From Nitrospira japonica (lineage in GTDB: Bacteria > Nitrospirota > Nitrospiria > Nitrospirales > Nitrospiraceae), in contig NZ_LT828648.1 in NCBI RefSeq assembly GCF_900169565.1, forward strand, positions 62,001 through 126,000: a stretch of 64,000 nt of DNA, written 5' to 3'. Both the position numbers and the translations under genes were made by a program. The stretch's first letter is position 1. Every line of letters starts with the position of its first letter. Below are positions 24,877 to 31,352 of the stretch, piece after piece. The notes below the pieces were generated by a model. The model was not told the origin of the DNA. It saw only the letters and a list, made by a program, of their open reading frames with translations, and did not search any database.

Positions 24877-27045
24877 TTATGACCGCTCTTGCCAGGCACG
24901 CACTCGCCTGGCCGTGATCACTCCGTCGACCCGCTCGATCGCTTTCAACACCTGATCCAAGTGCTGCGTACCGGACACCTCGATGATAAAGTCGAGAAGG
25001 GCCTTGCGGTCCTCGCGCGTCGCGATCTCCGCCCGGCTGATATTGGCGCGGCATTCCGCAATGGCCGACGAAACGTTGGCCAGCACCCCGGTTTTGTCCA
25101 CCGCCATCACCGACACTTTGACGGCATGCGTGCTGGGCGTGGCCGAATCCCATTCCACTTCGACCAGTCGCTCCCGGTCGTAGTCCAAGGCTTCGAGGTT
25201 CGGACAATCGATGGCATGGATGGTCAATCCGCGACCACGCGTGATGTATCCGAGTATGCGATCGCCTGGCACCGGATTGCAGCACCGGGACAGCTGCATC
25301 AACAGATCCCGAGCCCCCCTGACTTTGACCCCCTTGTCGTCGCTTCTTCCGGACACCGCCTTTTGTACGGTCGGTCGCTCTTCGGTCGGCGTCGAGGCAG
25401 CCGTCAGCTTGCCGATCACCTGCGCCGTCGGCACATGGCCGAACCCTACCGCGGCCGCCAAATCATCGGTCGTATCAAATCCCGCCTGCTGCGCCACATC
25501 CAGCAACTCGGCTGATTTCAACATCTGGGCAGGGGCCATCCCGTGCCGTCGAAACTCCGATTCCAATAGACGCCGCCCGATCTCGATGCTGCGCTTCTGC
25601 TCCTCGACCTTGATCCAGTGTTTGATTTTGGTTTTGGCACGCGACGTACGGACGAATTTCAGCCAATCTTTATGCGGAGTCTGGGTCGGCGAGGTCAGAA
25701 TCTCGACCGTGTCTCCGCTCTCCAACTGATGCTTCAACGGAACAATCTTTCCATTGACCTTGGCGCCGACGCAGTGGTCGCCGACTTCCGTGTGGATTGC
25801 AAAGGCAAAGTCCACCGGCGTCGAACCTTTCGGCAATTCCTTTAGGATTCCCTTGGGCGTGAAGACGTAGACGACGTCATGGAAAAGGTCGAGCCTGACG
25901 GAATCCATGAACTGACGGTTGTCGGTCAGATCACGCTGCCATTCCACAAATTGATGCAGCCAGCCGAACGCTTTGCTGTCCCGGTCCGTGATACGCCCCT
26001 GCTCTTTGTATTTCCAATGCGCCGCAATACCGTATTCAGCTACGCCGTGCATGTCCTCCGTTCTGATTTGAAATTCGACATGTTCGCCCTTCGGGCCGAC
26101 CACGGTCGTGTGCAGCGACTGGTACAGATTGGACTTCGGAATGGCGATGTAGTCCTTGAACCGCCCCGGAACGGGTCGCCAGAGCGAATGAATGACGCCC
26201 ACCAAGGCATAGCAGCTCATCTTGGAGTCGGTGACGATGCGCAAGGCCGTCAGATCATAGACTTCTTCGAACGAAATGGCCTGCTTGTTCATCTTCTGAT
26301 AAATCCCGTACAGGTGCTTGGGGCGTCCATATACCTGACCCGACAACCCGTTCTCCTGCATCGCCTGATTGACCAATTCGATGACTTCCTGAATGTACTG
26401 CTGCCGATCCTCGTCCCGCTTGGCGACGCGCACCCGCAACATCTCATAAACGTCCGGCTTCAGATGCTTCAGGCAGAGATCTTCGAGTTCGTTCTTGATC
26501 CAGCCGATTCCCAAGCGATTGGCGAGGGGCGCATAGATCTCCAAGGTTTCCTGCGCGATGGCCTGCCGCTTCGCGGGGCTGAGATGTTCCAGCGTGCGCA
26601 TGTTGTGCAGGCGATCGGCGAGTTTGATGAGCACGACGCGGATGTCGTCCGCCATCGAGAGCACCATTTTCCTGAAGTTCTCCGCCTGCTTTTCCTCATA
26701 GCTCTTGAACGTGATCTTGCCGATCTTGGTGACGCCGTCGACGAGATGCACGACGTCCTTGCCGAACTCCTTTTCGAGTTCCTCGGGCGTCGCGACCGTA
26801 TCTTCCAGGGTATCGTGAAGGAGACCAGCCACAATGGCCGTCACGTCCGTCTTCAGCGACGTGAGGACGCCTGCCACGGCGATGGGATGCTGAAGATAGG
26901 GCTCACCGGAGCGTCGGAGCTGGCCCTGGTGTGCCCGGGCCGAAAATTCGTAGGCCTTGCGAACGACTCCCAAGTCCGCGTCGGCATGGTAGCTCTTGAC
27001 TCGATCCAGCAGCTGGTCTAGATCCGTCACTGTTTCATACACCAT
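24877..27045 (-). CDS. rel: Bifunctional (p)ppGpp synthetase/hydrolase (Rel/SpoT)
   Basis: A 722-residue RSH-type enzyme that makes and degrades (p)ppGpp, the stringent-response alarmone. Domains in order are: HD hydrolase near residues 30-190 (HDTLEDT, LADRLHNMRTL), synthetase near 230-380 (YQSLHTTVVGPKG), TGS near 385-450 (FTPKGILKELPKGSTPVDFA), a helical/CC region and a C-terminal ACT domain (VMAVDKTGVLANVSSAI). The intact HD motif implies hydrolase activity is retained. It starts 5 bases after the stop of recJ, so they form an operon. Confidence 0.95.
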   Translation of the reverse strand: MVYETVTDLDQLLDRVKSYHADADLGVVRKAYEFSARAHQGQLRRSGEPYLQHPIAVAGVLTSLKTDVTAIVAGLLHDTLEDTVATPEELEKEFGKDVVHLVDGVTKIGKITFKSYEEKQAENFRKMVLSMADDIRVVLIKLADRLHNMRTLEHLSPAKRQAIAQETLEIYAPLANRLGIGWIKNELEDLCLKHLKPDVYEMLRVRVAKRDEDRQQYIQEVIELVNQAMQENGLSGQVYGRPKHLYGIYQKMNKQAISFEEVYDLTALRIVTDSKMSCYALVGVIHSLWRPVPGRFKDYIAIPKSNLYQSLHTTVVGPKGEHVEFQIRTEDMHGVAEYGIAAHWKYKEQGRITDRDSKAFGWLHQFVEWQRDLTDNRQFMDSVRLDLFHDVVYVFTPKGILKELPKGSTPVDFAFAIHTEVGDHCVGAKVNGKIVPLKHQLESGDTVEILTSPTQTPHKDWLKFVRTSRAKTKIKHWIKVEEQKRSIEIGRRLLESEFRRHGMAPAQMLKSAELLDVAQQAGFDTTDDLAAAVGFGHVPTAQVIGKLTAASTPTEERPTVQKAVSGRSDDKGVKVRGARDLLMQLSRCCNPVPGDRILGYITRGRGLTIHAIDCPNLEALDYDRERLVEVEWDSATPSTHAVKVSVMAVDKTGVLANVSSAIAECRANISRAEIATREDRKALLDFIIEVSGTQHLDQVLKAIERVDGVITARRVRAWQERS

Positions 27046-27049
27046 CGCA

Positions 27050-28753
27050 CTACTCCCGAACGCTTGGGCGCAGGTCGCGAATTCGGAGCTGGATCCGATC
27101 GTAGCCGTTCCACCGGTTCATTTCAGGCAGAAAGGCCAAGTCGACCGGGGAACGGGACGGGATTCCCCGATCTTCCAATGATCGCATCCCGAACCCGATG
27201 CTATCAAACGGCAGGGAGCGGCCTTGACGCACCGTCATTTTCAGGTGCCGTTCTCCCACGGTGCGAGCCTCCATGATCTCGAGCCCCTTCACCGCGAAGG
27301 TCGGCTCGGGATTGCCGGCGCCGAACGGATGGAACGCATGGATTTCTTGAATCAATCGGGTCGTGACGTCGGTCAGCCGCAATTCCGCGTCCACGTGCAG
27401 CGTTGGCTCGCCGGGACGGCTGTTCGTCCATGCCCCTGCAATCGCCGCAAACCGGTCTCCGAATTCGGCTAATTGAGTTTCGCGCACCGTGACGCCTGCC
27501 GCGCTGGGATGTCCGCCGAATGCGTCGAGAAGATCTCGGCATACGGATAACGACTCATAGAGATCGAAATTCCCGACCGTCCGCGCGGATCCCTTCCCCA
27601 CTCCATGGTCGTCGATGGCGATCACCACGGCGGGGCGGTGGTAGCGGTCGACCAACCTCGCTGCGACGATGCCCACCACCCCCACATGCCAACGTCGTGA
27701 GGCGAGCACCAGTGCACCCGGCAACTCCGGTTCCAACAGTTTGACCATGGCGATGGCTTCAGAGAGTACCTCGGCCTCAATCGCTTGCCGTTCCCGGTTG
27801 AGTTGCTCAAGCCGATCGGCGAGCCGGCTCGCTTCCGACGGCGAGTCGGTCGTTAAGAGCTGCACCCCGAGCAATGCATGATCCAATCGGCCGGCTGCAT
27901 TAAGTCTTGGAGCCAACCTGAACGCTACGGTTTCCGCGGTACACTCCTTCGTCACGCCGGCAACCTGCTTCAGCGCACGGATACCGCAGCGAGCGCCGCG
28001 CGAGAGCTGGACCAATCCCGCCCTCACAAATCCCTTGTTTTCGTCCTGGAGCGGTACGACGTCCGCAATCGTACCCAGGGCGACCAAATCCAATAACGAT
28101 TCCAGCGGCATCCCGCCGTCCCCATAGCGAGACTGATAGGCTTCGACCACTTTATAGGCCAGGGCGGCCGAGCAGAGTCCGCGAAACGGATACCGGGCGT
28201 CCGTCCGGTGGGGATTCATGACCGCCACGGCCGGCGGCATCCGCTCGTCCGTCTGATGATGATCAGTCACGATGACGTCCAACCCGAGTTCCATGGCCAA
28301 TGCCAACTCACGGTGAGCGGTGGTGCCACAATCGGACGTGACCAGCAGCGAGGTCCCTTCGGCCCGCAACTGCCGTACCGCGCCCGCATTGAGCCCGTAT
28401 CCCTCGCGCAGGCGATGCGGCACATAGGCGCGCACCCGAGCCCCCAGTCCGGCGAAGAACGAAAGATACACGCTGGTGGCGGTCATGCCGTCCACATCGT
28501 AATCCCCGTAAAAACAGATCGATTCGTTGTCGATCACCGCCCGCCGCAGGCGTTCGACCGCCTGCTCCATATCAGGAATGAGATACGGATCGTGAGAAAG
28601 CTGATGGGACATCCAGGATATGGCTTCGTCAGGCGTCGTCACTCCCCTCGCGACGAGCAAGGAAGCCGTTGCAGCCGAAATCGACAAGGCCTGTACCAGG
28701 AATTCGCGGTGCGTGGGATCGATGTCGCGGAAGACCCAAAGCTTGGACTTCAT
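27050..28753 (-). CDS. recJ: Single-stranded-DNA-specific exonuclease RecJ
   Basis: A 567-residue DHH-family 5'-3' exonuclease acting in recombination and mismatch repair. Motifs are YGDYDVDGMTATS, SDCGTTAHREL, VIVTDHHQTDE and the DHHA1 region LASRRWHVGVVGIVAARLVD with GGHPSAAGVT. Length is normal. Expressed with rel. The start MKSKLWVF lies after a short leader at 28754-28820. Confidence 0.94.
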   Translation of the reverse strand: MKSKLWVFRDIDPTHREFLVQALSISAATASLLVARGVTTPDEAISWMSHQLSHDPYLIPDMEQAVERLRRAVIDNESICFYGDYDVDGMTATSVYLSFFAGLGARVRAYVPHRLREGYGLNAGAVRQLRAEGTSLLVTSDCGTTAHRELALAMELGLDVIVTDHHQTDERMPPAVAVMNPHRTDARYPFRGLCSAALAYKVVEAYQSRYGDGGMPLESLLDLVALGTIADVVPLQDENKGFVRAGLVQLSRGARCGIRALKQVAGVTKECTAETVAFRLAPRLNAAGRLDHALLGVQLLTTDSPSEASRLADRLEQLNRERQAIEAEVLSEAIAMVKLLEPELPGALVLASRRWHVGVVGIVAARLVDRYHRPAVVIAIDDHGVGKGSARTVGNFDLYESLSVCRDLLDAFGGHPSAAGVTVRETQLAEFGDRFAAIAGAWTNSRPGEPTLHVDAELRLTDVTTRLIQEIHAFHPFGAGNPEPTFAVKGLEIMEARTVGERHLKMTVRQGRSLPFDSIGFGMRSLEDRGIPSRSPVDLAFLPEMNRWNGYDRIQLRIRDLRPSVRE

Positions 28754-28904
28754 ACCACCCTCGAGTAGGAGTCCGAGCCAAAAGAAGCGTAACCGGCCGG
28801 ATTTTAAGCGGATAGTATAAGGTCATCCGCGCTTTGTCAAACCGGAGAACGGGGGTTCGAACCTGGAATATATCAGCCGGAGGGGGAAGCTTGAGGTGGA
28901 GACG

Positions 28905-28936
28905 AGAGGAGGAGAAACCGGTCGGGTGAACGACCG
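28905..28936 (-). terminator. Possible intrinsic terminator directly after pup
   Basis: On the minus strand CGGTCG-TTCACC-CGACCG (28919-28936) directly follows the pup stop codon and precedes GTTTCTCCTCC. The stem is short (6 bp) but GC-rich. If active it separates pup from recJ. Confidence 0.4.
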
Positions 28937-29134
28937 TTACTCCCCCCCCTTTTGCACGTAGTTCTTCACGAATTCTTCAGCATTCTTCTCAAGGACATCG
29001 TCGATCTCGTCGACCAACTTATCGATATCTTCCTTCAGTTTCTTTCCGGCCTCGACGACTTTCGGATTGGCCTTGACCTCTTCCTTCGCCTGCGGGTCTT
29101 TGCGCTGCTCTTGTTTGCGCTCCTGCTTTTCCAT
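28937..29134 (-). CDS. pup: Prokaryotic ubiquitin-like protein Pup
   Basis: A 65-residue, highly charged, Lys-rich protein. Its C-terminal half (VDEIDDVLEKNAEEFVKNYV, residues 41-60, then QKGGE) matches the conserved helix and tail of actinobacterial Pup. Pup is ligated to lysines of target proteins by PafA and directs them to the Mpa/ARC-proteasome. It ends in Glu, not Gln, so deamidation by Dop would not be needed before ligation. The start has GGGAGGTG upstream. No proteasome, ARC, PafA or Dop gene is in the window, whereas pup usually sits with them. It lies between hppA and recJ and has its own candidate promoter. Confidence 0.88.
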   Translation of the reverse strand: MEKQERKQEQRKDPQAKEEVKANPKVVEAGKKLKEDIDKLVDEIDDVLEKNAEEFVKNYVQKGGE

Positions 29135-29193: not shown

Positions 29194-29223
29194 ACCTTAC
29201 TCCACGCGATTTGAGCCCGTCAA
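29194..29223 (-). promoter_or_regulatory. Candidate promoter of pup
   Basis: Minus-strand TTGACG (29218-29223), an 18-base spacer and TAAGGT (29194-29199). The -10 hexamer is identical to that proposed for smbP. Predicted leader is about 55 bases. Confidence 0.4.
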
Positions 29224-29294: not shown

Positions 29295-31352
29295 TTACCG
29301 GACGATCAGCGAAACGATCAGCAACGCAACGATGTTGATGACCTTGATCATCGGATTGACCGCCGGACCTGCCGTGTCCTTGTACGGATCTCCAACTGTA
29401 TCGCCTGTTACCGCGGCCTTGTGTGTTTCGGTTCCTTTCTTTCCCTGCTCTTCGATGTATTTCTTTGCGTTGTCCCAAGCCCCTCCGCCGCTGGTCATGG
29501 AAATCGCAACGAATAGTCCCGTCACGATACTGCCCACCAGCATGCCTCCCAGTGCCTGAGGACCGAGCACGAGACCGACGATGACGGGGGAGACCACCGG
29601 AATCAATCCGGGGATCATCATTTTCTGGATGGCCGCTTGCGTGACGATGTCGACGCAGGTGCCGTACTCAGGCTTACCCGTCCCTTCCATAATCCCTTTG
29701 ATGGTCCGAAACTGCCTGCGCACCTCTTCAACAATCAACCCGCCGGCCTCTCCGACCGCCTTCATGCATAATGCCCCGAACAGAAACGGCAACATACCGC
29801 CCAAGAACAGTCCGACCAGCACTTTGGGATCCGACAAATCGAAGGCCGCCAACGACGGATTGTGTGCGGCCACTTCCCTCGCGTATTCCGCAAAAAGCAC
29901 CACGGCTGCGAGACCCGCCGACCCGATGGCATATCCCTTCGTGACCGCCTTGGTGGTGTTGCCAACCGCGTCCAGGGGATCCGTGATGTCCCGAACTTCT
30001 TTCCCAAGATGGGACATTTCCGCGATACCGCCTGCATTGTCGGTAATGGGTCCGAAGGCATCGATCGCGACTACGATTCCGGCCATCGACAACATCGACA
30101 CCGCCGCAACGGCCACGCCATACAGACCGCCGGAAGCCGCGCCGCCGCAGATCCAATAGCTGGCGAGAATCGCCGCGGCGATCATGACGACCGGAGCCGC
30201 CGTCGACTGCATTCCGACGGCCAACCCGGCGATAATGTTGGTGGCATGTCCCGTTTCGCTGGCTTTCGCGATGTACTTGACCGGTGCATAACTCTTGGAC
30301 GTGTAGTAGTCGGTGATGAAGACCAGCGCGAGGGTCACAATTAGACCCATTAGGGCCGCGATGTAATAATTGACGGCGCCGACCCCTCCGACTCCATCCA
30401 TGATGCTCGAGGTAATCGGGAAAAACGCCACGGCGGCAATGCCGCCCGCCACGAAAAGGCCTTTGTAAAGAGCCGGCATGATCTCTCCGCTCGGCCCCAC
30501 TCGCACGAAGAAAATGCCGATGATCGTCGCAAAGATCGTGATGCCTCCGAGAGCCAGCGGATAGAGAATCGGAGCGCTCTGTCCCTTGAACAGCGTGAAG
30601 GCGAGGACCATTGCAGCCACCGTCGTGACCGCGTACGTTTCAAACAGATCCGCCGCCATTCCCGCGCAATCGCCGACATTGTCGCCTACGTTGTCCGCAA
30701 TGACCGCGGGATTTCGCGGGTCATCCTCCGGAATCCCCGCTTCCACTTTGCCGACGAGGTCAGCGCCCACATCCGCCGCCTTGGTATAGATACCTCCGCC
30801 CACCCGGGCAAACACCGAGATCAGACTACCTCCGAAACCAAGACTGAGGAGCGCGTGAATCGCCTTTTCCTGTCCGGAGATGGATTGAGCGATAGTATAG
30901 AAAGCCGTGATCGCCAGCAGCCCCAATCCGATCAGCAGGAGGCCGGTGACGGCGCCTCCACGAAACGCCACCGTCAGAGCCGCGTTCATCCCGTCATGTG
31001 CAGCTTGCGCGGTACGTACGTTCGCCCGAACGGCGATGATCATGCCCACATAGCCGGCCAACGCAGAGGCGCCAGCCCCGACCAAAAACCCCATGGCCGT
31101 CAACATACCGAATTTGTCGGAAACCGCCCCGGCCCCGGCCAGCACGACGAACAGCACGGCAGCCACGATGGCTACCGTACGGTACTGCCGATTCATATAG
31201 GCGCTCGCGCCCTCCTGAATGGCTTTGGCAATCTCCTGCATCTTCGCGTTGCCGGCATTCAGTTTGAAAACCCACATGGCAAGGTACAAGCCATAGGCGA
31301 TGCCGGCCACCGCCGCAATCAACGCAAACGTGACAATTGCTGAATCGTTCAC
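29295..31352 (-). CDS. hppA: Membrane-bound proton-translocating pyrophosphatase
   Basis: A 685-residue integral membrane pump with about 16 helices that couples pyrophosphate hydrolysis to ion export. The catalytic loop is [20 protein letters not shown] and the acidic motif [19 protein letters not shown] follows. The determinant [17 protein letters not shown] has Lys where K+-dependent enzymes have Ala, which predicts the K+-independent, H+-pumping class. This would recover energy from biosynthetic PPi in a chemolithotroph with a small energy yield. The start is GTG (MNDSAIV) with AGGAGG upstream. Confidence 0.95.

Follow-up and report, generated by a model that had tools for sequence, protein, structure and literature searches.

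In the actinobacteria, including Mycobacterium tuberculosis, the genes of the Pup-proteasome system are arranged in the order arc/mpa-dop-pup-prcB-prcA-pafA, and the encoded tag ends in GG[EQ]. In published accounts (Iyer et al.), pup is 'invariably' adjacent to a PafA gene, and its location beside dop and prcB is likewise presented as invariant. In the other classes and families of the phylum studied here, the Pup system consists of the same cluster, with pup inside the operon, about 20-150 bp after dop, and with a Pup that usually ends in Glu. The UBact system likewise combines a tag gene with genes for an ATPase, the alpha and beta subunits of a proteasome, and enzymes resembling Dop and PafA, but its tag belongs to another family; in the UBact cluster of the genome analyzed here, the tag, which ends in RQRTGE, is encoded within the cluster, and the ATPase ends in NQII, not in GHYL. 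In Corynebacterium glutamicum, which has no proteasome, the encoded Pup ends in Glu, so that deamidation is unnecessary, as has been established, and Dop is retained (PMC3511204).

The Nitrospira genome analyzed here encodes the same component families as the actinobacteria, with the enzyme and proteasome genes in the same order, but pup lies 44 kb away from its usual place between dop and prcB, apparently under its own promoter, and the dop stop codon overlaps the prcB start (TGATG). To judge from the genomes compared, pup is unlinked to the cluster throughout the order, which is thus an order-wide exception to the pup-PafA adjacency, with a known system arranged in a new way. No paper noting this exception was found in the literature searched, with most subscription journals outside the scope of the search, and priority cannot be claimed.

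The window, a stretch of 64 000 nucleotides, covers positions 62001-126000 of a genome assembled as a single contig (4,084,817 bases, ~4.08 Mb). The original prediction identified a Pup gene ending in Glu within it, and this identification holds: the coordinates of the ORF are exact (Table 1), and the 65-residue product, with the terminal residues QKGGE, scores above the cut-offs of both the Pfam Pup model PF05639 (77.6 bits, E = 1.4e-21; cut-off 27) and the NCBIfam model pupylate_cterm, TIGR03687 (61.6 bits; cut-off 41.45), while a search with the curated UBact models (PF20513 and NF033388) gave no match. Residues 28-65, the C-terminal part that corresponds to the solved Mpa-bound and PafA-bound Pup, align without gaps to mycobacterial Pup (E = 3.9e-11; 3m91 chain B and 3m9d chain G). 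All relatives read share the GG[EQ] end. Pup is present in 132 of the 147 genomes of the family, nearly always in one copy, and in all 22 genera (22/22), and the mean pN/pS of the gene is 0.09 (19 family sequences), with a nearly invariant C-terminal half; because of this breadth of occurrence and this constraint, the ORF is a genuine gene, far from a chance reading frame. To judge from the sequences, the gene at its present site is in use.

Table 1. Coordinates of the features discussed (plain numbers, positions in the window; prefixed numbers, positions in the contig or locus named)
Feature	Position	Strand	Remarks
relA/spoT-type gene	24877..27045	(-)	ancestrally paired with recJ at this site
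recJ	27050..28753	(-)	downstream flank of the relocation site
recJ promoter TTGACA-N17-TACTAT, putative	28812..28840	(-)	in the pup-recJ gap; mostly shared by relatives
possible terminator hairpin after pup	28919..28936	(-)	weak 6-bp stem; low confidence
pup	28937..29134	(-)	prokaryotic ubiquitin-like protein of 65 residues, ending in QKGGE; no second copy
-10-like element TAAGGT of the pup promoter	29194..29199	(-)	downstream of the -35-like element, spacing 18 nt
-35-like element TTGACG of the pup promoter	29218..29223	(-)	conserved across the family
hppA	29295..31352	(-)	upstream flank in the window's family
cluster A, arc-dop-prcB-prcA-pafA	G000:C1:40438-46773 (L010 3408-10774)		complete canonical set minus pup
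cluster B, UBact-proteasome	G000:C1:1879119-1885867 (L011 3120-9868)		complete; ~1.879-1.886 Mb (1.88 Mb)
UBact tag gene (NF033388, PF20513)	G000:C1:1882487-1882612		distinct from pup

As predicted, pup is located between hppA and recJ, all three on the same strand, with the relA/spoT-type gene next after recJ, and no proteasome genes lie beside it; when the genome-wide matches were checked by position, the window contained no other Pup, Pup-ligase or proteasome-subunit match. The gene is nevertheless not the orphan that it was taken for. The genome encodes four Pup-ligase homologues and four proteasome-type subunits, split over two clusters, and the search for prcAB, arc, pafA and dop that had been suggested recovered all of them in one of the two, cluster A, at ~40.4-46.8 kb of the contig, 15 kb from the edge of the window. 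Here arc, dop, prcB, prcA and pafA are clustered as in a canonical locus, and the products pass the NCBIfam cut-offs for PafA, Dop, 20S beta, 20S alpha and the pup_AAA ATPase, that is, for the canonical, actinobacterial-type families. The ligase is thus encoded in the same genome as Pup (PafA, TIGR03686, 564.7 bits; cut-off 551.3); PafA and Dop align to the solved enzymes across the region with the conserved Asp, and PrcB starts with TTV after the propeptide. The proteasome-docking tail of the mycobacterial ATPase is GQYL. The end of the cluster A ATPase, GHYL, is close to it. Of the two possibilities raised for pup, a relocated gene or a second copy, the latter falls away, since a search of the whole contig found no second Pup. 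Cluster A is followed by an M23 peptidase gene, and ~0.5 kb farther on lies an IS30-family transposase gene (L010 1872-2882).

The separation of pup from the cluster recurs in the relatives, and in no member of the order that was checked is the cluster adjacent to pup; as PafA is encoded too, neither of the findings originally named as refuting the idea came up. In the 43 genomes of the family whose pup and dop share a contig, the two are never nearer than about 40 kb (about 40-75 kb in 35 of the 43 and 129-864 kb in the remaining eight), and pup is upstream of dop on the same strand in all but one (G071). The new neighborhood is similarly stable: hppA is the upstream neighbor in all 20 pup loci from the family, and recJ directly follows pup in 27 of 30 loci from two families of the order, the other three having relA without recJ, as if recJ had been deleted from between pup and relA (G293, G006 and G004; L126, L138 and L139). 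In a sample of named records, which overlaps the genome set in that a few records are the same assemblies, pup is beside hppA and/or recJ in 23 of 23 Nitrospira/Nitrospirales-type records, and proteasome-system genes lie within a few kb of pup in 53 of the 57 others, mostly actinobacterial. In a record titled Patescibacteria (L238), possibly misbinned, a divergent recJ-like gene is found near pup, and no gene of the proteasome system turned up within 4 kb; a Methylomirabilota and a Rokuibacteriota record (L210 and L214) contain Pup relatives with no recognizable dop, prc or pafA in the stretch covered.

In the outgroups compared, pup is found within the cluster. In all nine class outgroup genomes, which represent seven other families, it adjoins prcB, and the same holds for genomes of other classes; one of these (G207; G207:C16 and G207:C135, L164 and L165) contains two Pup-proteasome clusters, with a pup inside each. 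By contrast, pup is absent from 14 of 14 clusters from the two families sampled in the window's order, although the clusters are otherwise syntenic with those of the class outgroups, with thiG upstream and the M23 peptidase gene downstream in both. The eight outgroup recJ loci that were recovered retain the recJ-relA pair, with neither pup nor hppA within the 1.5 kb read upstream. In the PafA+Dop tree, the genomes of the order group together as a single clade (support 1.0), which is nested among lineages whose pup is in the cluster. Given the in-cluster pup of the outgroups, their pup-less recJ-relA loci and the single clade formed by the order, the simplest history is that pup left its place between dop and prcB a single time, long ago, in the ancestor of the order, for the site upstream of recJ-relA, where it has been strictly conserved; a duplication in which the original copy was later lost would leave the same picture as a move. 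We consider it very probable that the gene is the functional Pup of a complete canonical system, that its relocation was a single event in the order's ancestor, and that it has stayed upstream of recJ-relA since.

A different history, the loss of pup from the cluster and the acquisition at recJ of an unrelated one from outside, would account for the dop-prcB gap, where three-frame translation of 14 genomes of the order revealed no pup remnant in any of them, only the PrcB propeptide being recognizable; a protein as short as Pup does not give a firm tree. Such a replacement is unlikely, however: the Pup of the order matches the in-cluster Pup of the class closely, residue for residue (the present Pup is 71 and 74% identical to those of two class outgroups, compared with ~45-56% for most Pups of actinobacteria), and the partner enzymes were, according to the PafA+Dop tree, inherited vertically. 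Still less credible is that pup survives for some other reason, as a moonlighting or non-tagging relic that no longer serves the proteasome. The lack of linkage to the enzymes would fit such a relic, and non-degradative roles of Pup are possible in actinobacteria without proteasomes (PMC3511204), but purifying selection is very strong across the whole C-terminal half that binds Mpa and PafA, the GG[EQ] end is found in every sequence read, and Pup broadly co-occurs with canonical Dop, which is kept in 137 of the 147 family genomes. That the placement is an error of assembly could be suspected as long as a single window had been seen, but the genome is a single contig and the same placement recurs in many independent assemblies, other single-contig ones included, which refutes it for all practical purposes.

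Having moved, pup appears to be transcribed on its own. In an alignment of 16 genomes, the region upstream of the gene is poorly conserved except for the Shine-Dalgarno sequence and two elements, TTGACG and TAnnnT, 17-18 nt apart. The pattern TTGAC[G/C]-N17/18-TAnnnT is present in 20 of 21 family sequences, the present gene included; among the 20 other family members aligned or scanned, 19 have the -35-like element (18 TTGACG and one TTGACC), and most members of the sister family have a TTGAC[C/G] version of the pattern. By its spacing, the putative promoter is of the sigma-70 type, whereas its TAAGGT is a weak match to the -10 consensus (3 of 6 positions; conserved as TAnnnT), so that it is conservation that speaks for it; a generic promoter scan did not report it. 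The arc operon is preceded by a near-consensus promoter, TTGACC-N17-TAGAAT, found in 7 of 7 sequences. With a promoter for each (Table 1 for recJ), it seems that pup, recJ and the arc operon are each transcribed as a unit of their own. Of the promoter and terminator originally proposed for pup, the former gains support from its conserved elements, and the latter comes down to the weak hairpin, for which an alignment of relatives showed no conservation.

Going by the family memberships, the PafA of cluster A would join the C-terminal Glu of Pup covalently to lysines of target proteins, Dop would take Pup off the targets, and the Arc/Mpa ATPase would recognize the coiled-coil part of Pup and feed the tagged protein into the PrcAB proteasome. 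With two conserved promoters, the supply of the tag could be set independently of the arc-dop-prcB-prcA-pafA operon. Independent dosage may be the reason why the arrangement was kept; drift could explain its retention as well. Nitrospira would offer a natural case of a tag supplied independently of the enzymes that attach it and of the proteasome that degrades its targets, and methods based on gene neighborhoods will call the Pup system of this lineage incomplete.

The second cluster in the genome, cluster B, is a UBact-proteasome locus with the gene order ATPase, Dop-like, UBact, beta, alpha, PafA-like, the NQII and RQRTGE ends noted above in its ATPase and tag, respectively, and enzymes that score below the cut-offs for the canonical Pup system. 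Unlike C. glutamicum, the genome therefore has two complete sets. UBact is found in 115 of the 147 family genomes, and 105 have both Pup and UBact (hand count); PMC searches, with the original 2017 UBact paper outside their scope, yielded no mention of the two in one Nitrospira. The presence of two complete tag-proteasome systems in one cell makes their division of labor and cross-reactivity testable. A speculative and rather improbable extension is that pup was freed for separate control under two tagging systems, and that the freed Pup is shared with the UBact pathway or competes in it, through the PafA-like or Dop-like enzymes, making the two proteasomes one regulated network. One genome of 1.7 Mb (G064, 91% complete) has the UBact cluster, with Pup and the canonical cluster not found, a possible loss of the Pup system.

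The Glu end of Pup is unrelated to the relocation, as it is also the usual end of the in-cluster Pups of relatives (nine Glu and no Gln in the class outgroups). Among the 48 Pups read from the family, 41 end in Glu and seven in Gln, and the sister family has eight and two, respectively; being the commonest end in the family, the sister family and the class outgroups, Glu is probably ancestral, and Gln probably arose several times. A link between the relocation and a Gln-to-Glu change is ruled out by the nine of nine Glu-ending in-cluster Pups of the class and by the occurrence of both ends in the order; relocation as an adaptation to the loss of Dop is ruled out by the retention of Dop. By analogy with C. 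glutamicum, the Glu end may make deamidation by Dop unnecessary, as originally proposed, yet Dop is kept all the same. If the main work of Dop is depupylation (PMC3511204), its retention is expected with either end.

Pup is missing from 15 and Dop from 10 of the 147 family genomes, and these are mostly, though not all, fragmented assemblies. In two genomes (G067 and G104), an apparent retention of pup without the cluster could not be separated from fragmentation of the assembly. Only one near-complete genome, a Nitrospira MAG (G037), lacks Dop while its cluster is otherwise present: in it, thiG breaks off at residue 180 and runs directly into the final 25 residues of prcB (L266 7509-8803, G037:C20), a junction that removes arc, dop and most of prcB, through either assembly collapse or real deletion, and the Glu-ending pup is retained. 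In another genome, the canonical Dop gene contains one in-frame TAA (G010:C62:32514-34001, in L268), from a sequencing error or in a broken gene; the Pup of this genome ends in Gln, so that deamidation would be needed there.
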